From assembly GCA_937888775.1 (NCBI GenBank), contig CALAQT010000485.1, positions 1 to 27,642 of the forward strand: a stretch of DNA of 27,642 nucleotides, in the 5' to 3' direction. The notes below the pieces were generated by a model. That model did not search any database. It had not been told where the DNA came from and was given only the letters and a program-made list of their open reading frames with translations. Below are positions 19,959 through 27,642 of this stretch, piece after piece (the stretch's first letter is position 1; the number at the start of each line of letters is the position of its first letter). Made by a program: the position numbers and the translations under genes. The stretch comes from an uncultured Actinomycetes bacterium. GTDB taxonomy: Bacteria; Actinomycetota; Thermoleophilia; Solirubrobacterales; Solirubrobacteraceae.

Positions 19959-20055
19959 GGAAGGAAGTTTATTTCGCGCGGCTGCCGCCGCCGCAGCTCA
20001 CCCTTCGAACCCGGTCGGCCGAGCCGGCCGGCCCGCAGTTAGGGCTCGCGAGCCC

Positions 20056-20973
20056 TTAGGGGCGGCGCGCGGTCAGCAGGAGGTTGTAAAAGATCGCCGG
20101 GGGCAGCAATGGCTCGAGCACCTTCTCGTCGAGCCGTTGCAACAGCAGATAACCGTGGAAGGCGTACCGGCGCCAGAGCATCGGCACGTCGTCGGGGTCG
20201 GCGCTAGCCTCCAGCGCGCGGTTGAACCAGCCGAACCAGTTGGCGGTCAGCTCCTCGCCGCGGACCACGATCTCGGTGAATCCGGAGCGTCTCGCGTGAC
20301 GCGATAGATCGCCGGGGGCGAACGCGTGGATGTCGACGAAGCGCTCCAGGTCGTGGTCGCGCTCGTGGCCGGACCCCGGGCCGCCCGGCGGCGGGGCGGG
20401 ACTGGCGCGCAGCAGCGCGCGCCACACCGGGGCCAGCGCGCCGGCGCCGCGCTTGGGCACCGAAGCGATCCGGTCCCCGAAGCGTGAAGGCTCGCCGGCA
20501 AACACGATCCTCCCACCGGGGCGCAGCACGCGATGAAACTCGTTGAACGCCCGGCGCAGGTTGGGGAGATGGTGGAGCACCGCGTGGCCGAGCAGCAGAT
20601 CGAAGCTCTGGTCGGCGAACGGCAGCGATTCTGCGTCCGCCCGGGCGGTCCGCACCTCCAGACCCAGTCGCTGCGCGTTGCCGGCCAGCGTGGTGACCAT
20701 TCCGGGCGAGATGTCGGTGCAGGTAGCGTCGCGTACCACTCCGGCCTGCAGCAGGTTGAGGCTGAAGTAGCCGGTTCCGGCGCCGATCTCAAGCGAACGC
20801 TCGTAGCCGTCGTCGAGCTCGGCGCCGAGCAGTTTGCGCAGCTTGCCGAGCACCTGCGCCTGGCCGACCGAGCCAAAGTCGATCCCCCACTTTGAGTCAT
20901 AGCTGTCGGCCGCGACGTCGTGATAGCGCGTATTGACGTCGCGGATCTGATCCGCGGTCCGAAGTGCCTCCAT
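20056..20973 (-). CDS. Class I SAM-dependent methyltransferase (UbiE-type fold)
   Basis: 305 residues from ATG 20973 (MEALRTADQIRDVNTRYHD). SAM-binding motif I is SLEIGAGTGYFSLNLLQAGV. The acidic motif II follows as CTDISPGMV, then ARADAESLPFADQSFDLLLG and the HAVLHHLPNLRRAFNEFHRVLRPGG block of methyltransferase family 11. The C-terminal part (RYAFHGYLLLQRLDEKVLEPLLPPAIFYNLLLTARRP) has a hydrophobic patch that may touch membrane or lipid substrates. The substrate is unknown. The gene is divergent from another methyltransferase 27 bp away; together with GH57 and a glycosyltransferase it may belong to a polysaccharide or lipid-sugar locus. Confidence 0.8.
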   Translation of the reverse strand: MEALRTADQIRDVNTRYHDVAADSYDSKWGIDFGSVGQAQVLGKLRKLLGAELDDGYERSLEIGAGTGYFSLNLLQAGVVRDATCTDISPGMVTTLAGNAQRLGLEVRTARADAESLPFADQSFDLLLGHAVLHHLPNLRRAFNEFHRVLRPGGRIVFAGEPSRFGDRIASVPKRGAGALAPVWRALLRASPAPPPGGPGSGHERDHDLERFVDIHAFAPGDLSRHARRSGFTEIVVRGEELTANWFGWFNRALEASADPDDVPMLWRRYAFHGYLLLQRLDEKVLEPLLPPAIFYNLLLTARRP

Positions 20974-20982
20974 GGCGCCGGG

Positions 20983-20989
20983 CACAATA
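20983..20989. promoter_or_regulatory. Possible overlapping divergent -10 elements
   Basis: CACAAT (+, 20983-20988) and TATTGT (-, 20989-20984) share the same bases. They lie 11-12 bp from GTG 21001 and ATG 20973 respectively, which would give near-leaderless divergent transcripts. No convincing -35 is visible. Confidence 0.3.
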
Positions 20990-21000
20990 CCCTGTCCCGC

Positions 21001-21789
21001 GTGCCAGTGAACGCCTACGTTCAACGCGACCAGCCCGCCGGGGTGCCGCCGCTTGAACTGACAGGGGAGCGCACGCTTCCCGATGTTCCGGCCGAGAACT
21101 ACTGGTACCGGCGCCATCTGGCCGTCTACGAGTGGATCGGAGCCCGGGTCGCCGGGCTGCGGGTGCTCGACATGGCCTGCGGCGAGGGTTACGGCTCGGA
21201 GGTGCTGTCACGCTCGGCGGCCGGCGTCGTGGGCGTCGACGCCAATCCCGAGGCCCACGAGCACGCCCGCCGGCGGTACCGCCGCCAGAACCTGCGCTTT
21301 GACCGCGGACTGGTCGAGACCTACGGTGAGCCGGCCTCCTTCGACGCTGTCGTGTTCCTGCAGACGATCGAGCACGTGAACGACCCCGCGGCGGTCCTCG
21401 AGCACTTCCGCTGGACGATGGCGCCCGGGGCGGTGGCCTACGTCTCGACCCCTAACGTCCTCACGCTCGCGCCTCCCGGGGCCCAGAAGTCAGACAACCC
21501 GTGGCATCTGAAGGAGTACCGGGCGCAGGAGTTCATCGATCTGTGCAGCACTGCGTTTGACCACGTCGAGCTGCTGGGCATATTCCACGCCGGCAAGCTG
21601 CGCCTGCACGAGCGGGCGCTGGCGCTGGGGTGGGACCGCGTCCATGCCAGATTGGGGATCACGAAGTTGTTCTATGACCGTTTCACCCCGGCGATCTCCA
21701 CGCGCGACTTCGCGCTGCGCGACCGCGATCGGTCAGGTGTCCACGGCCGGCTCGACGGAGCGCTTGACTTCCTGGCGATCTGCCGGTGA
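21001..21789 (+). CDS. Class I SAM-dependent methyltransferase
   Basis: About 262 residues from GTG 21001 (VPVNAYVQRDQPAGVPPLELTGERT). The open frame reaches back to 20920, but that would enter the divergent gene's start. Motifs are GERTLPDVPAENYWYRRHLA, motif I LRVLDMACGEGYGSEVL, VVGVDANPEAHEHAR, FDAVVFLQTIEHVNDP and VAYVSTPNVLTLAPPG. The layout is that of methyltransferases in surface-sugar or glycan loci, which often begin with a 'GER..P' segment. Its stop overlaps the start of the GH57 fragment as GTGA, so the two were one operon before the insertion. Confidence 0.82.
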   Translation: MPVNAYVQRDQPAGVPPLELTGERTLPDVPAENYWYRRHLAVYEWIGARVAGLRVLDMACGEGYGSEVLSRSAAGVVGVDANPEAHEHARRRYRRQNLRFDRGLVETYGEPASFDAVVFLQTIEHVNDPAAVLEHFRWTMAPGAVAYVSTPNVLTLAPPGAQKSDNPWHLKEYRAQEFIDLCSTAFDHVELLGIFHAGKLRLHERALALGWDRVHARLGITKLFYDRFTPAISTRDFALRDRDRSGVHGRLDGALDFLAICR

Positions 21790-21853
21790 GCAAACCACGC
21801 GGGGAGCTGGCGCTCGTACTGCACACGCACATGCCCTACGTCCTGGGATATGG
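21786..21853 (+). pseudogene. GH57 glycoside hydrolase / branching-enzyme N-terminus, cut by mobile element
   Basis: GTG 21786 begins with SKPRGELALVLHTHMPYVLG, the opening strand of GH57 (DUF1957-type alpha-glucan branching enzymes), where 'HxHMPY' holds a conserved active-site His. After about 22 codons the family sequence stops, and the serine recombinase promoter begins. The usual next residues (GFGTWPFGEEWL-like) are absent. The remaining ~500 codons are not found in the window. This marks the left boundary of the inserted element. Confidence 0.7.
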
Positions 21854-21879
21854 TAGAATCGGTGCTCTACCGAGAGGAG
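21852..21879 (+). promoter_or_regulatory. Promoter-palindrome and RBS of the recombinase gene
   Basis: TAGAAT at 21854-21859 is a good -10. It sits in an inverted repeat GGTAGA...TCTACC (21852-21871) that could be an operator. GAGAGGAG at 21872-21879 is a strong Shine-Dalgarno for GTG 21884. The attachment-site core is expected near here. Confidence 0.45.
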
Positions 21880-21883
21880 CATC

Positions 21884-23344
21884 GTGCCCCAAGCCAAAAC
21901 CTATGACTTGCTGATCCGAGTGTCCCGCATGGGGTCGCGCACCGAGGGCGCCGAAACCACGATGACCCTTGGTGACCAACGCACTGCGGGCATGGCCACC
22001 ATCGCCCAAGCTGGCGGGCGCTTAGGGCGCGAACTTCAAGCGACCAATCAGTCCGGGTCCACGGTCCACACATCGGCCAAGTGGGCCGAGGCTGTCGCGC
22101 GGGCGAATCGCGGCGAAACCGCTGGCTTCGCTATTGCGTATGACGATAGGCTGGGGCGCAACTGGCGCACCGCTGGACCGTTCTACGATGCCTGCGAAGC
22201 GGCGGGCTGCGAGATTTTATTCTCGAATCTGCCCGGTGTGGATTACCGCACTGATGACGGCCGCACGATCACCGGAGTCCTCGCGGTTGTCGCGGAGAGG
22301 ACGTATCTCACCGCGCGAAACCGAGGCAACCGGATCGCGGCAGCGGTGCTTGCTCGCGGCGTGACCAACAGGGTGCCCTTCGGGTACAGACGCAATGCCG
22401 CCGAGTTTGACGACCGAGGCGAGGCTATCGAAAGCAGCAAGACCGACCCGGACAAGGACGGCAAGGCGCTCGTCCCCGACGACGCCGAGGCGCCCTTTCT
22501 CGTCGGCATATTCGAGCGGCGGGCTGACGGCCACTCGTGGGTCAGTATCGCCCGATGGCTCGACGCGGAGGGCGTGAAACCGCGGTCGCCCCGCGGCAGT
22601 TCGGGCACTTGGACAACCTCGACGCTCGCCAATATGATTTCCAGCTCTGTCTACCTTGGCACCGTGACCCTTGGGGATCGCCCACCGGTAGAGGACGCGC
22701 ACAAGCCGCTCGTGACCCGGGCACTCTGGAATAGGGCGCAGTCGAGCACCACGATCCAGCGCACCGGTCGAAACTGCGCCGGAATCGCCGGGGGCCTGCT
22801 GGTCTGCGGAACCTGCGGCGGCATTCTGTCCGTGACGGGCTCGAACCCCTCCTACACCTGTCGGCGGACAATCAACGGCGTGCCCTGCGGCCGTCCAACC
22901 TATGTCTCAAAATCAAGGGCTGACGAGTTCGTGGAGCGGGCCGTGATCGAAGCGCTTTCGACCGGATCGCTGGACGTGCTCACGACCGCCGCCGACCTGA
23001 CGCGGCTACGGGGCGCCTGGGAGGACGCACAAGCCGCATTGGAGAATGTTCTAGCGCTTGGTACGGCCCTAGACCCGGCGATGCTTAGGCGGGCTGTGAG
23101 CGTGCGACAGGGCCGGATAGACGAGACTCGCGCCGCCTATGAAGCTGCTAGGGACGGCGCCGAAGCTGCGTCGGCGCTACCGGACGCGAGCGCGTGGGCG
23201 ATGCTCGACCTCGATGACAAGCGCCGAGTCGCTGGGGTGCTGATCGAGCACGTCACTGTGAGCGCGCCTGTGTCCATTCGGGACCGCGTACCACACGCGG
23301 ACGTGGCGCGGCGCTTCAAGGTCCGCTGGAACGGCGGCAAGTAG
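21884..23344 (+). CDS. Large serine recombinase (integrase) of a mobile element
   Basis: 486-residue site-specific recombinase. The resolvase-type catalytic domain has the nucleophile Ser14 in LLIRVSRMG and the conserved DRLGRN at 88-93. The Recombinase domain (about 160-290: RVPFGYRR, SIARWLDAEGVKPRSP, MISSSVYLGTV) follows. A zinc ribbon uses Cys308, Cys311, Cys326 and Cys335. A coiled-coil stretch of Ala/Arg/Glu-rich helices lies around 365-450. Such enzymes integrate and excise phages and integrative elements between attP and attB, usually with attP beside the gene. Its 5' end abuts the broken GH57 gene, as expected at attL. Codon choice is less GC-biased than in the flanking genes. Confidence 0.92.
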   Translation: MPQAKTYDLLIRVSRMGSRTEGAETTMTLGDQRTAGMATIAQAGGRLGRELQATNQSGSTVHTSAKWAEAVARANRGETAGFAIAYDDRLGRNWRTAGPFYDACEAAGCEILFSNLPGVDYRTDDGRTITGVLAVVAERTYLTARNRGNRIAAAVLARGVTNRVPFGYRRNAAEFDDRGEAIESSKTDPDKDGKALVPDDAEAPFLVGIFERRADGHSWVSIARWLDAEGVKPRSPRGSSGTWTTSTLANMISSSVYLGTVTLGDRPPVEDAHKPLVTRALWNRAQSSTTIQRTGRNCAGIAGGLLVCGTCGGILSVTGSNPSYTCRRTINGVPCGRPTYVSKSRADEFVERAVIEALSTGSLDVLTTAADLTRLRGAWEDAQAALENVLALGTALDPAMLRRAVSVRQGRIDETRAAYEAARDGAEAASALPDASAWAMLDLDDKRRVAGVLIEHVTVSAPVSIRDRVPHADVARRFKVRWNGGK

Positions 23345-23358
23345 GCTCGCCAGTCTGC

Positions 23359-23430
23359 TATAGTCTAGTAGAATGGCGCACCTAAAAGCGCGCCAACGAA
23401 GCTCGCGGGGGCTTCGATAGCTGACTATCG
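23359..23430 (+). promoter_or_regulatory. Promoter and three-hairpin leader
   Basis: Two -10-like hexamers, TATAGT (23359-23364) and TAGAAT (23369-23374), precede three short stem-loops. They are TGGCGC...GCGCGCCA, CGAAGC...GCTTCG (23397-23416) and CGATAG-CTGA-CTATCG (23415-23430), the last two sharing a CG. The leader precedes the 54-aa ORF. It could be an attenuator, a small RNA or a recombinase terminator. Confidence 0.4.
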
Positions 23431-23468
23431 CAAAGCAATTTCCCCCACCCGCCACTGTCGCGCTTGCC

Positions 23469-23633
23469 ATGCAGGCGCTTGCCGACGCACTCGCCCGAAA
23501 GCACCCGGACCTCGGTTTCACGCCGCGGTCCGACCTCGGCGGGAGCCTGCTCGCCGTCGAGTCGCCGCTGAGCGGCGCGCCCCGGCTAGCCGCTGACATG
23601 TACGGCCGTGCCATGAAAGGCGAGGTAGGCTAA
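23469..23633 (+). CDS. Small element protein (54 aa), unknown function
   Basis: ATG 23469 opens MQALADALARKHPDLGFTPR and ends in RAMKGEVG. In-frame protein-like sequence extends upstream to a CTG near 23421 (LTIAKQFPPPATVALA), so a non-standard start is possible. Composition is that of a small phage or plasmid protein; no motif is recognised. Its stop lies 4 bp before the ATPase start, so translation of the two is likely coupled. Its last codons are echoed in a second copy at 24909-24935. Confidence 0.5.
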   Translation: MQALADALARKHPDLGFTPRSDLGGSLLAVESPLSGAPRLAADMYGRAMKGEVG

Positions 23634-23637
23634 CCGC

Positions 23638-24756
23638 ATGACCTCAACTGAAAACGCGACTAACCGCCTACAGGACGAATGGGAGGAGCGCCTAGCGCGC
23701 GACTATGAGGAGTGGGAGGCGTTCGCTCAAACAGTTGCGGATGGCAAGCTGTACCTACATCTAGCGGAGCACGGCAAGCCGCGCCCGGAGGATGTCGCCC
23801 GGATTATGCGCGAGGGTCCGCGGCTACCGGAGATGACGATAGATGGCTGGCTCGTCAAGGGCGAGTTGCACTGGATTTTCGCGGACGCCGAAGCGGGCAA
23901 AACCTGGCTGGCGCTGTGGCTGAGTGTGGCCGTGATGGCCCGCGGCGGCACGGTCGTTTACTTTGACGAGGAGCTTGGCCGGGATGCAATCGCCCAACGG
24001 CTGATTGACCTAGGCGCAGACCCGGACGTGGTCGAAAAGCAGTTCGTCTACTGCCCGTTCCCGTCCTGGCAGATTGGATCGAGCGCGGAGCCTACGGAGC
24101 CTGATATGCACCGTGACGCGCTGCGAGCGCTCAAGGGTGATTTGCAACTGGTTGTCTATGACACCGTGACCGACGCGCTCGCCGAAGCTGGGATGGACGA
24201 AAACAGCGGTGTGGACGTAACCCGCTGGGTCAAGGCTTACCCGGAGGAGGCGCGCAAGCTCGGAGCCGCGGCGCTCGTGCTTGACCATACCGGCAAGTCC
24301 AACGGCGACACCGCCGTAGGGTCGCGCGCTAAGAGGGCCAAGGCCAAAGTCCAATTCAAGCTCAAGTCAAGTGGACGGTTTGATCGGGACACGACTAACG
24401 AGGTAGTTGTCACGTTGAAAAAGAACACGAGCGGCGCCGTTGGCATACCGGACCGGAGGGTGTTCAAGGTCGGCGGCGATGGTGAGGGACACTTCCTATG
24501 GGAACCGATGTTCGCATCGACGGGCGAATTGAAGACAGCGGTGACGGCTAACCGCATCCGCACCGACCTCGTCGCCCGCATCGGCAACTTGCCCGGTGTG
24601 ACGCAGCGCAACCTATTCGCAAACGTGCCCGGAGAAACGAAAGCCAAGGGATCGGAGCTAGCTTGGCTCATATCCGATGGCACCGTCCGCGTCGAACCGG
24701 GCGCGCGCAATTCCATCTGCCACTTCCTATCCTCGACTGCGACGGATGTGGGCTGA
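23638..24756 (+). CDS. RepA/AAA_25-like ATPase of the mobile element
   Basis: 372-residue RecA-fold ATPase. The glutamate-rich N-terminal helix (LQDEWEERLARDYEEWEAFA) is followed by WLVKGELHWIFADAEAGKTW, a Walker A at residues 82-89 with Ala in the first Gly position. Then come VYFDEELGRDAIAQRL, Walker B LQLVVYDTV (Asp175) and ALVLDHTGKS, a sensor-like strand. The layout resembles hexameric RepA/AAA_25 helicases that plasmids and phage satellites use for replication. A C-terminal part from about 295 may be a winged helix. It probably drives or helps replication of the excised element, which is inference from family and neighbours. Confidence 0.75.
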   Translation: MTSTENATNRLQDEWEERLARDYEEWEAFAQTVADGKLYLHLAEHGKPRPEDVARIMREGPRLPEMTIDGWLVKGELHWIFADAEAGKTWLALWLSVAVMARGGTVVYFDEELGRDAIAQRLIDLGADPDVVEKQFVYCPFPSWQIGSSAEPTEPDMHRDALRALKGDLQLVVYDTVTDALAEAGMDENSGVDVTRWVKAYPEEARKLGAAALVLDHTGKSNGDTAVGSRAKRAKAKVQFKLKSSGRFDRDTTNEVVVTLKKNTSGAVGIPDRRVFKVGGDGEGHFLWEPMFASTGELKTAVTANRIRTDLVARIGNLPGVTQRNLFANVPGETKAKGSELAWLISDGTVRVEPGARNSICHFLSSTATDVG

Positions 24757-24776
24757 GTGCGTGACTGCGACTGCAC

Positions 24777-24809
24777 TGGGGCACTCCTACGGAGTGTGCC
24801 CCCCCCAGT
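24777..24809 (+). terminator. Terminator after the element ATPase
   Basis: CTGGGGCACTCC-TAC-GGAGTG(T)GCCCC...CAG, a strong stem of about 11-12 bp with one bulged T, 20 bp past the stop. Confidence 0.65.
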
Positions 24810-24860
24810 TGCACTCGCGGCTCAAGCACACTAAAAGCCGGGGTTTGCAGGGAAACACCA

Positions 24861-24897
24861 GTGAAACTGTGAAACTGACCGCAACTAACCGCAACTA
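24861..24897. repeat. Short tandem repeats, possible iterons or operators
   Basis: Two perfect tandem copies of GTGAAACT (24861-24868, 24869-24876) are followed after one base by two perfect tandem copies of ACCGCAACTA (24878-24897). The embedded CTAACCGC (24885-24892) also occurs at 23630-23637, 23660-23667 and 24548-24555. Confidence 0.55.
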
Positions 24898-24905
24898 TTC
24901 CGACT

Positions 24906-24942
24906 GCCATGAAGGGCGAGGTAGGCTTACCGTAGGATGACC
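24906..24942 (+). repeat. Second copy of a 34-37-bp initiation region
   Basis: Matches 23610-23643 with few changes. Both contain GCCATGAA-x-GGCGAGGTAGGCT followed by ACCG and then the ATG-ACC start of the next gene. Here the copy encodes a possible leader peptide MKGEVGLP ending one base before ATG 24937. Confidence 0.6.
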
Positions 24943-25158
24943 AAATACTTCGTAGTAGCCAGTGATGGCATGGGCGGATTCTTCCGTGGGCGCGTGGACG
25001 ACATTGCCGAGATGGAGAAGTGGCGCGCCAAGGGGCTCCCGGTGTTCTCCGTCAAAGACGGACAGGACCAACGTGCCGAGCTTGCCAAGGCACTCACCCG
25101 TCACAAGCTGGACGTTGCCCGCGGCCGGGTTCCGGCCGATGCATTCTTGAGTGCGTAG
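24937..25158 (+). CDS. Small element protein (73 aa), unknown function
   Basis: MTKYFVVASDGMGGFFRGRV begins a short protein with an N-terminal beta-rich half and a charged helical half (AELAKALTRHKLDVARGRV). There is no membrane segment or catalytic motif. It lies between the repeat region and the next small gene and shares the repeated initiation region with the ATPase gene. The size and position would fit a DNA-binding or regulatory protein, but nothing in the sequence proves this. Confidence 0.55.
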   Translation: MTKYFVVASDGMGGFFRGRVDDIAEMEKWRAKGLPVFSVKDGQDQRAELAKALTRHKLDVARGRVPADAFLSA

Positions 25159-25199
25159 GTCAGTACAAACCAAACCAAAGCAAAGCTGAGGAGCAAAGC

Positions 25200-25445
25200 A
25201 TGGCGACGGCAACCGAAACGAAAATCACAACCCGCAAACCCACCGACCGGGACCGGCTTCACGCGGATGCCTTCTGGGATGCGCTCGCGGACACCGGACA
25301 CGTCGATAGCCGCGGTGGCGCCGAGTACACGCGAGTGTTCGCGTCTGGTGCGTCCGAGCGCAGGGTCAAGGACTACGCGAAAGCTGCGCGCGGCCTAGTC
25401 GCCAGCGTGGCCCGTTCCGCCAAGCAAACCGCCGCAACCAACTAG
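25200..25445 (+). CDS. Small element protein (81 aa), unknown function
   Basis: ATG 25200 follows GAGGAG at a good distance. The start MATATETKITTRKPTDRDRL is disordered and charged. The remainder (HADAFWDALADTGHVDSRGG, then RRVKDYAKAARGLVASVARS) is helical and basic. The stop TAG is part of CTAG at 25442-25445, where the IS701-type sequence begins, so the insertion seems to have landed exactly at the end of this gene. The original C-terminus could have been longer. Confidence 0.6.
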   Translation: MATATETKITTRKPTDRDRLHADAFWDALADTGHVDSRGGAEYTRVFASGASERRVKDYAKAARGLVASVARSAKQTAATN

Positions 25446-25803
25446 TGCTCTGACAGGTGGTGGGAAGGGTTATGTAGCCCGACGGTGAACTTGGTTGACA
25501 TGGTTGCTGCCAGCGTGATGGACATCGGGATCGATGAGGAGATGGTCGGGGTCGCGCCGGCGGTGGTCGATCGGTTGGCGGAGTACTTCGCTGATGTCGC
25601 GTCGGGTCTTGTGCGCTCGGAGCAGCGCTGGGCTGCTGAGTACTACGCGCGTGCGTTGATGATGGACGGGGCGCGTAAGTCGTTGGAGCCGATGGTCGCG
25701 CGGATCGGCGGGACGAGTGTGGAGTACGAGGCGCTGCAGCATTTTCTGGCTGATAGCCCGTGGGATCCGGCGGTGATTGACCGGGCGGTCGCTGAGCGGG
25801 TGC
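25446..25803 (+). mobile_element. IS701-family insertion sequence, left part only
   Basis: Begins after CTAG with TGCTCTGACAGGTGGTGGG. IS701 elements favour 4-bp YTAR targets, which fits. The transposase N-terminus starts at GTG 25485 (or ATG 25500): RLAEYFADVASGLVRSEQRW, AAEYYARALMMDGARKSLEP, LQHFLADSPWDPAVIDRAVA. Sequence leaves the family near 25803, before any catalytic Asp, so roughly three quarters of the gene is missing. No matching right end was found; GTCAGAGC at 26159 is only an 8-base resemblance. Confidence 0.75.
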
Positions 25804-26223
25804 GCGCAGTCCGTTGCAGATCGGTGAGGAGGAGGTGGGGTGCTGGTTGCGGACTCGTCCGCGGGTCCGGCCGTTGGCGGTGCACCCGGGCTGGCGCACC
25901 AGCCTGGACACCGCCTGTGCGGTCGTGCTGGCCACCGTCGGCTGGGTGCGAACGCCCGAGCCTCTGCGCGAGGCACGGCGGGTCGCCCGGCGCGCTCGCG
26001 CCGGGCTGGCGCCTACCCGTACCAGACCCGTTCGCGGCGGCGATCCGTGTTTGCCGGACCGGCCCTCGCGACAGTCTGCGGATGCGCGCTCGAGGATGGG
26101 CGACTAGGTTGAAAGCAACCTCGTCATCGCCCGCCACGGACCCTCGGCCGGGGCGGCGTCAGAGCTGGAGCGGTTCCGTTGACTGCACTCTCGGCTGCGA
26201 CATCCCCGGAGGCTCACCCGGGC
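25804..26223. other. Unassigned GC-rich stretch between IS fragment and glycosyltransferase
   Basis: About 420 bp with no gene I can support. One + frame stays open from 25814 to a TAG at 26105 and reads QIGEEEVGCWLRTRPRVRPL and HPGWRTSLDTACAVVLATVG, which is protein-like at first and degenerate later. After the TAG the same frame gives VESNLVIARHGPSAGAASEL and a TGA at 26180-26182, perhaps the tail of a lost gene. Other frames are no better. Confidence 0.35.
26102..26125. terminator. Hairpin, possible terminator
   Basis: GAC-T-AGGTTG-AAAG-CAACCT-C-GTC, a 9-bp stem with one mismatch and a 4-nt loop. Confidence 0.45.
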
Positions 26224-26988
26224 GTGAAGCGCAGTGCGTTTCGGGTGGCGATGATCGCGCCACCGTGGATTCCGGTGCCGCCTTCGGCCTAGGGGGGAAT
26301 CGAGGCCGTCGTCTCGCTGCTGGCCGACGAGCTGACCCTTCGCGGGCACGATGTGATGCTGCTGGCGGCGCCGGGGTCGCGGTCAGCGGCGCGTGTCCGC
26401 TCGCCGCTCGAGAGCGGGCACGCCGACCGGATCGGGTGGTCGCTGTACGAGGCCGATCACGTCGGCAGCGCGTACGACGCGGTCGACGACGCGGTGATCG
26501 CCGGGCAACCGTTCGACGTGGTGCACGACCACTCCGGGTTCACGGCGGTCGCGATGGCGCCCCGCAGCCCGATCCCGGTCGTACACACCTTGCACGCGCC
26601 GTTCAACGACGACACCAGGCCGTTCTACGCCCGCCACGGCCACAAAGTGCGGCTGGTGGCGATCAGCCGCTTCCAGCTCGAGCACGCGCCGCCCGGCGTG
26701 CGGATCAAGGACGTGGTGCCGAACCCGATAAGGGTCGAAGACTGGCCGTTCCGCGAGGGCAAGGATGAGTACCTGCTCTGGGTCGGGCGCTTTGATCCGG
26801 TCAAGGGCGCCCATCGCGCGATCCGCGTCGCCCATCAGGCGGGCATTCCGCTCGTGCTCGCGGGACCGGTACAGCCGGGGCAAGAGGAGTACTTCGCGCG
26901 CGAGATCGAGCCGCAGATCGACGGCGAGCAGGTGCTGTATCTCCAGGAGGTGGGCGGCGCGCGTCGGCGCTGCTGCCCGTGCGATTGA
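26224..26988 (+). pseudogene. Glycosyltransferase family 4, nonsense codon and 3' truncation
   Basis: GTG 26224 follows GGAGG at 26208. The protein reads KRSAFRVAMIAPPWIPVPPS and then TAG at 26290-26292, where GT4 enzymes have Tyr before GGIE (PPxxYGGxE loop). After it GGIEAVVSLLADELTLRGHD and FDVVHDHSGF continue normally, as do VVHTLHAPFNDDT and the linker YLLWVGRFDPVKGAHRAIRV that starts the donor-binding domain. Family similarity ends near EVGGA (about 26955), before the catalytic E-x7-E region. It would have transferred an NDP-sugar. In this context the partner was probably the GH57 enzyme. Confidence 0.8.
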
Positions 26989-27642
26989 ACTGCAAGGCCC
27001 GTTTATGCGCGACGCCGAGACGGCCAACCGGCTGCTAGCGCTTGCTGACGAGGCGCACGGCTGGCCCGGACGTTGGTTGACGGCTGGGGACTGGGCGCCC
27101 CCCGTGCTGCCCGTGCTGAAGTCCAGCAACGCTGTAGCGGCCCGTGTAGCGCCGTTCGTCGCCGCGTGCGCGGCCGGGTTCGGCGAAGTTGCGCGGGTGC
27201 TCGGTATCGTCGCCGAGGTAGACGTGCAGGCAATCGGCCAAAGTGTGCTCGATGACATCGGTGAGCAGATGGCCGAGCGCGGCGAGACGGTTGGAATACG
27301 GCTCTGGAACGCGCTTGAGCAGGACATAGCGTCGAACCCGTCGCTGTACCCGTCCCGGCAGGAGGCGCTCGGACTCGGATTCGTCGCTGGCGGCAAGGGA
27401 CTGCGCGGTGTATCCGAGGACGGCTACCTGTATCTGTTCAAGGACCGCGCCAAGGACCTAGCGCACGGGATTGAGGCTGACCTACGCGCCGCGCTCAGGG
27501 AGCTTGAGGATACCGGCGCGCATATCGTGCTGACGCCGACCCGCGGACGGGCGGAACGAGTCAGCGTTGGCCGCACTCAAGTCGATACTCGAGTTTCGGG
27601 GTTCTCGGTTGTTGTGATGACCGGCGCGGCGGGGCTAGCGAG
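26960..27642 (+). CDS. Unidentified mobile-element-type protein, partial at both ends
   Basis: An open frame runs from before 26960 to the window end; ATG 27005 is the first good start, but protein-like sequence (ARAIELQGPFMRDAETANRL) extends upstream across the junction. A helical N-terminal half is followed by SNPSLYPSRQEALGLGFVAG, GYLYLFKDRAKDLAHGIEAD and LRELEDTGAHIVLTP. The last part, a helix-turn-helix-like segment then basic beta strands, recalls the C-terminal region of DUF927-type or phage primase-helicase proteins. This is a weak resemblance by eye. Codon use (CTA, GTA, ATA) matches the 21.9-25.4 kb element rather than the chromosome. Confidence 0.5.

Follow-up and report, generated by a model that had tools for sequence, protein, structure and literature searches.

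Which element broke the GH57 gene in this Solirubrobacteraceae contig, and how much of that element is present? The stretch under study (hereafter the window) comprises the 27,642 nucleotides of contig CALAQT010000485.1. A sequence-only reading, made without database searches, had described a compact serine-integrase element near the start of GH57 and had closed it at 25445. We find that the serine-integrase insertion in GH57 is very probably real. For the whole, the best explanation, which we consider likely, is that the window holds the left, integrase-proximal end of an integrative element in GH57 that is longer and rearranged, and that resumes at 26957.

GH57 is broken beside a serine integrase

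The left side of the insertion contains the following features.

20920..21789, + strand: S-adenosylmethionine (SAM)-dependent methyltransferase, the host gene beside GH57 (Methyltransf_23, E 3.7e-16)
21786..21842, + strand: GH57 gene, first 19 codons, forming the left attB half (alignment with 12 relative loci; many DNA matches stop at 21842)
21822..21883, + strand: proposed attL, made of the attB left half, the crossover and the attP half, which extends to the start of the integrase (junction mapped by alignment, exact core presumed)
21884..23344, + strand: large serine integrase, 486 residues (Recombinase 5.1e-15, Resolvase 1.5e-7, Zn_ribbon_recom 1.6e-6; PHROG 95 integrase 2.8e-45)

The window is chromosomal DNA of an actinobacterium near Solirubrobacterales. 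It was compared with 232 genomes, all from the order to which G002 belongs (the Solirubrobacterales metagenome-assembled genome that contains locus L002). A homologue of the methyltransferase is found in 201 of the 232 genomes at E<=1e-60, the best one (81% identity) being in G125, and 20 relative loci were collected around such homologues. In 12 of these 20 loci, a GH57 gene in the same direction lies 3' of the methyltransferase and reads on past the break point of the window; they include L057 and L059, whose contigs run out soon beyond the junction point. The remaining eight loci have no GH57 after the methyltransferase, one because of a contig end, the others because other sequence follows. 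More widely, the GH57 start is found in 181/232 genomes at E<=1e-4, with more than one match in seven of them. The integrase is absent from all 20 methyltransferase loci; hence, the possibility that the gene order of the element is normal chromosome in relatives was checked and is not borne out.

Alignment with the 12 loci locates the break precisely. HTHMPYV or HSHMPYV, followed by a glutamate codon, is present in 12/12, and GFGTWPFGEEW or a near variant comes next in 10/12. Across the crossover, the motif of the relatives reads HTHMPYV and then EGFGTWPFGEEW. The window agrees with the relatives up to V19 (base 21842) and continues with a leucine, G-Y-G and element sequence. Many DNA alignments terminate at 21842, while some extend to 21853 because of a short resemblance; the crossover is therefore placed at 21840-21843, at the latest at 21854. 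Hence, the interruption itself stands as first described, with the cut falling after 19 codons rather than about 22. The gap from the break to the integrase start measures 41 nucleotides, and the 21842 junction resembles the attL that serine-integrase elements typically show, which would put attB at the GH57 HTHMPYV motif. Judged from its position and family, this integrase would be the agent of the insertion; the junction itself is observed. It would have recombined attP with attB in the conserved motif near the GH57 start, stranding codons 1-19 upstream.

Two variations of GH57 were seen among the relatives. In G118 and G129, the listed GH57 match starts only at residue 19-20. In G123 (L058), GH57 naturally contains some 25 additional residues in a loop 1-2 codons past the crossover point; this insert is not an integrase.

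Base composition differs across the junction

The host DNA (1-21842) is strongly enriched in GATC, with 251 occurrences where 50 shuffles average 126, and foreign DNA is therefore easily spotted here. The stretch 21843-25445 contains 11 GATC, whereas 365 host windows of the same size, which overlap and all come from one 22-kb stretch, contain 28-58 (0/365 as low). Its 11 CTAG exceed the count in all 365 windows. GATC is absent from the 686 bases of 26957-27642, against 1-15 in 424 host windows (0/424 as low), and the intervening 25446-26956 has 17, equal to the host median. Measured against shuffles, it is the host that is enriched in GATC, and the element just lacks that enrichment. Codon usage was also compared: third-position G+C is 0.761 in the integrase, 0.739 in the helicase described below and 0.755 in the DUF927-type part beyond 26957, against 0.850-0.909 in six host genes. 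The glycosyltransferase fragment that precedes the DUF927-type part reaches 0.91.

These data bear on the view that unrelated sequences were joined at 21842 by the assembly. Such an artefact could account for the missing GH57 remainder and for the several gene fragments that follow. On the other hand, the break falls at the spot expected for a serine-integrase attL, 41 nucleotides ahead of the start codon of the integrase, a repeat search over 21700-27642 listed no long repeat at 21842, and composition is unlike on the two sides. We regard an artefact as very improbable. Overall, the serine-integrase element in GH57 of the sequence-only reading holds up through the uninterrupted GH57 of the 12 loci, the short distance from junction to integrase and the foreign composition.

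A probable phage lineage of the integrase

The integrase is a full-length large serine recombinase, as first proposed, with its catalytic (Resolvase), Recombinase and zinc-ribbon domains all present. The combination of these three domains in one protein, and an integrase gene adjoining the junction, are features it has in common with the large serine integrases of SPbeta (YokA), A118 and phiC31. A conserved coding gene as target is likewise shared with known elements of this kind. The family profile of the integrase matches solved serine integrases, e.g. SPbeta YokA; with the single sequence as query, no solved structure was matched at E<=0.001. We take S14, within an IRVS motif, to be the catalytic serine.

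Among the 7998 best candidates scored, 35 related proteins were retained at E<=0.001, with 27-100% identity. One of them, P0001, a jgi protein whose contig measures 3464 bases, is 100% identical across the aligned length and has a different start, suggesting that the integrase exists elsewhere in another copy or as a variant. The next nearest, P0002 and P0003, show 81-85% identity. The nearest relatives with readable DNA are the IMG/VR contigs L003-L005 (38-43% identity), with profile scores of 2e-167 to 1e-178 versus 5e-116 for L109, the best-scoring locus from a bacterium (34% identical). L004 carries tail and baseplate genes, L005 a tail gene, and L003 RecT and an exonuclease. Since the closest readable matches bear phage genes, the integrase probably derives from a phage lineage. 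Within the order, its profile finds matches in 44/232 genomes at E<=1e-25.

This raises a sharper form of our preferred reading, overlapping with it, in which the window shows the integrase end of a degraded prophage, from a tailed phage of this order whose structural genes lie outside the window. The phage-gene-bearing contigs L003-L005 argue for it, as does the AAA_25 protein encoded downstream of the integrase, which weakly resembles phage primase-helicases in a PHROG search. Against it, no AAA_25 match is found in L003-L005, and phage structural genes are absent from the part seen. Pattern scans of viral_contigs for helicase candidates were fitted by 2 and 35 stretches, none of which was confirmed. 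A degraded prophage in this strict sense is possible, short of an even chance.

A RepA-like ATPase and three small proteins

Behind the integrase, all in the same direction, lie four further open reading frames.

23469..23633, + strand: small open reading frame S1, 54 residues, no family match
23638..24756, + strand: AAA_25 RepA-like ATPase/helicase, 372 residues (AAA_25, E 1.5e-20)
24937..25158, + strand: small open reading frame S2, 73 residues, no family match
25200..25445, + strand: small open reading frame S3, 81 residues, no family match

The RepA/AAA_25-like ATPase of the sequence-only reading is confirmed: the family profile, a structure model and fold matches agree on a RecA-fold ATPase core with a P-loop. 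We take ADAEAGKT to be its Walker A motif. Compared with the RSF1010 RepA replicative helicase, the protein has an extra N-terminal helix and a C-terminal helix-strand part. The scores of KaiC, RadA and DnaB differ by no more than about 1 Z, so that function is not fixed by the fold alone. From the modelled fold, the protein is probably a helicase that would serve the element's own replication after excision.

Two other loci of the order, L109 (G125 contig 178) and L106 (G184 contig 65), have an AAA_25 protein within a few kb of a serine integrase. The L109 element, in the nearest genome, resembles the window in this pairing, with an integrase 34% identical to ours; it differs in lying beside what we read as a TetR-type gene and in having a Prim-Pol gene.

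The three small proteins were rightly called unknown, as S1, S2 and S3 match nothing in Pfam, PHROG or NCBIfam better than E 0.03. A match of S1 in L102 (E 0.005) was discarded, since it overlaps a longer gene on the opposite strand.

Folded gaps and a duplicated start-site sequence

Folded gaps are found on either side of the S1-helicase pair, and a repeated sequence at two start codons.

23345..23468, + strand: non-coding gap before S1, with a TAGAAT -10-like box at 23369-23374 (promoter scan, consensus match only) followed by three tandem stem-loops at about 23374-23429
23609..23641, + strand: 33-nucleotide repeat, copy 1, at the AAA_25 start codon, 88% identical to copy 2
24756..24832, + strand: long hairpin of 77 nucleotides, nested, directly after the AAA_25 stop codon (fold)
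24905..24937, + strand: 33-nucleotide repeat, copy 2, at the S2 start codon, 88% identical to copy 1

Folding was scanned in 756 windows of 80 nucleotides over 20000-27559. The lowest z of the scan (-3.85), at window 23350, falls in the gap before S1, and the second and third lowest (-3.76 and -3.75) in the gap after the helicase gene. Shifted placements of the window before S1 give z values of -3.73, -3.08, -2.14 and -1.92, and host coding windows go as low as about -3.2; the signal of this leader is therefore modest. The structured leader of the sequence-only reading is thus backed by the scan minimum, with the reservation that the value depends on placement and that the fold taken first, 23372-23470, is unremarkable (z -1.3). 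The hairpin at 24756-24832 has a z of -5.1 (0/200 shuffles), for limits picked by eye after a longer fold that is itself unremarkable (z -1.2), and it was not called by the terminator scan. Rfam gave no match over 20000-27642 at E<=1. The direct repeat spans the region just upstream of, and including, the start codons of two element genes, and presumably resembles the start-associated sequences of some actinobacteriophages.

The folding of both gaps is observed, and they are candidate control sites or a candidate origin; in our model they would act in one of these roles. A tentative extension is that the window samples an undescribed lineage of Solirubrobacterales integrative elements that takes a highly conserved motif of branching-enzyme-type GH57 as its attB, replicates with a RepA-like helicase under control of the two folded gaps, and uses the duplicated 33-nucleotide start-site sequences as a common signal for translation or regulation. 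We hold this combination to be rather doubtful.

The right side consists of fragments and element-like DNA

Beyond S3, the sequence changes character.

25446..25810, + strand: IS701-family insertion sequence (IS) element, 5' part (transposase N-terminus, profile 1-76 of 363, E 1.1e-15; the left limit, at CTAG, is our reading)
25814..26107, + strand: Endonuclease V gene, 3' fragment, last quarter (PF04493 147-196 of 198, E 6.5e-9)
26224..26956, + strand: glycosyltransferase family 4 gene, 5' part, pseudogene (in-frame TAG at 26290; DNA matches to relatives)
26957..27642, + strand: DUF927-type gene, 3' part, open at the window end (similarity to P0091/P0090, composition)

The right end originally drawn at 25445 cannot be kept: the GH57 remainder is missing, the IS701 and gene fragments follow, and element-like DNA is back at 26957. 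With the GH57 of G125 as query, the window matches the first residues only (E 3.4e-4; next best E 0.34), and the rest of the gene is absent. A right end was also sought through direct repeats; among the 20 repeat families listed, of 34 (21700-27642), none pairs with the left junction. The 1.5 kb of 25446-26956 consist of gene fragments alone, between two stretches of foreign composition. Glycosyltransferase and Endonuclease V were considered as normal neighbours of GH57 and rejected, as neither stands behind GH57 in the 20 loci; where they were found (5/14 and 4/14 genomes, respectively), they are on other contigs or far from GH57. A plasmid search with the IS701 stretch returned one partial match, and no defence family was found at E<=0.01.

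DNA matches to the glycosyltransferase stop at 26957 in three alignments (L120 and L124/L126, two of which are one place) and at 26924 in L119. There, the DUF927-type fragment abuts the broken gene. The join, GTGGGCGGCGCGCGT, fits both reading frames, so that a few bases may be shared. The product of 26957-27642 shows 59% identity to P0091 over 131 residues, which lie behind the DUF927 domain of that protein, and 52% identity to P0090, a protein without Pfam domain; by itself the stretch has no match to the DUF927 model. Matches of the END open reading frame in 2/232 genomes (E 2e-4 and 9e-4) were dropped, since they seem antisense to other genes.

A longer, broken element is the preferred reading

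Because the GH57 remainder is absent, fragments begin at 25446 and element-like DNA appears again at 26957, the window probably contains the left portion of a longer, broken element and not a complete 3.6-kb satellite. For the whole, a degraded integrative element of prophage-like or plasmid-like character is most likely. In this reading, it would have been interrupted at 25446 by the IS701 fragment together with host-like fragments of genes, and a DUF927-type replication gene would mark its resumption at 26957, as composition and family suggest.

The alternative is a complete element of about 3.6 kb (21843-25445), a phage satellite or integrative plasmid, whose right att site and GH57 remainder were taken by an IS701-linked deletion; the DUF927-type fragment would then belong to a separate element, responsible for the break in the glycosyltransferase gene. 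The genes are indeed compact and all in one direction, no structural, packaging or transfer family is matched in 21843-25445, GATC content is host-like from 25446 on, and the IS701 fragment comes right after the S3 stop codon. In addition, no integrase locus examined has a DUF927-type relative. Against this, attR was not found, no hijacking or transfer function is seen, and the DUF927-type fragment shares the foreign composition of the element. We consider a complete small element unlikely.

Several observations weigh against the longer, rearranged element that we prefer. Beyond the overlap and common origin of the host windows, the element is not GATC-poor with respect to its own shuffles (11 in 21843-25445, mean 13.2), and the zero count of 26957-27642 compares with a shuffle mean of 2.3 and is also reached in 40/500 shuffles. 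The IS701 and Endonuclease V fragments are intermediate (third-position G+C 0.80 and 0.83; rare codons 0.13 and 0.17), leaving the glycosyltransferase as the only host-like part of the 25446-26956 block by codon measures, and S1 (third-position G+C 0.83) is nearer the host than the other element genes. An AAA_25 gene lies near an integrase only at L109 (1/30 integrase loci) and L106 (1/7 helicase loci); as these are the sole pairings, the integrase-AAA_25 pair is no general module. DUF927-type relatives occur in 0/33 integrase loci and in 0/163 loci collected. No other genome was seen with an element at this attB. The window contains neither attR nor a second GH57 half, so a single clean integration is not demonstrated. 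Continuity of one element over 25446-26956 is drawn from composition and one open reading frame, and the IS fragment may mark a join made by the assembly.

Relation to known elements

Like the actinomycete integrative and conjugative elements (AICEs), the window combines an integrase with a replication gene. In excerpts of PMC3218068, some AICEs have serine recombinases and sites in protein-coding genes, one of them a putative endonuclease gene, and others a site in a tRNA gene. The window differs in that its part of the element, whose right portion is missing, has no match to a transfer gene (FtsK/Tra-type), RepSA, RepAM or Prim-Pol, and has the AAA_25 protein and the DUF927-type fragment instead. 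With respect to phage satellites of the phage-inducible chromosomal island (PICI) type, no packaging or capsid-hijacking gene is matched in 21843-25445, the element being cut off on the right.

The sequence-only reading had judged a site at the start of GH57 unusual. This is not supported in kind, since targets in coding genes are known from excerpts of PMC10083194 and PMC3218068. The former, a survey of serine recombinases, predicts 82.8-88.3% of clusters to be relatively site-specific, with specificity for one to three disrupted gene clusters in most, and its excerpts describe a conserved site within the coding sequence of a prolyl isomerase. A GH57 or branching-enzyme gene as serine-integrase attB was not found in our literature search. 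Solirubrobacterales go unmentioned in the abstract openings of the literature matches listed for mobile elements. Hence, the kind of element is already known, and its attB address in GH57 was not found described.

If true, these results add a new attB, in a widespread gene of a little-studied soil order, together with an integrase that appears to use it, and pairs of this kind, of integrase and att site, serve in practice as tools for placing DNA. In addition, the methyltransferase-GH57 order is reminiscent, by gene order alone, of Rv3030-Rv3031 in the mycobacterial methylglucose lipopolysaccharide cluster, as given in excerpts of PMC4555173. As the broken GH57 adjoins the methyltransferase in this methylglucose-lipopolysaccharide-like order, the insertion, if true, would be a natural knock-out there.

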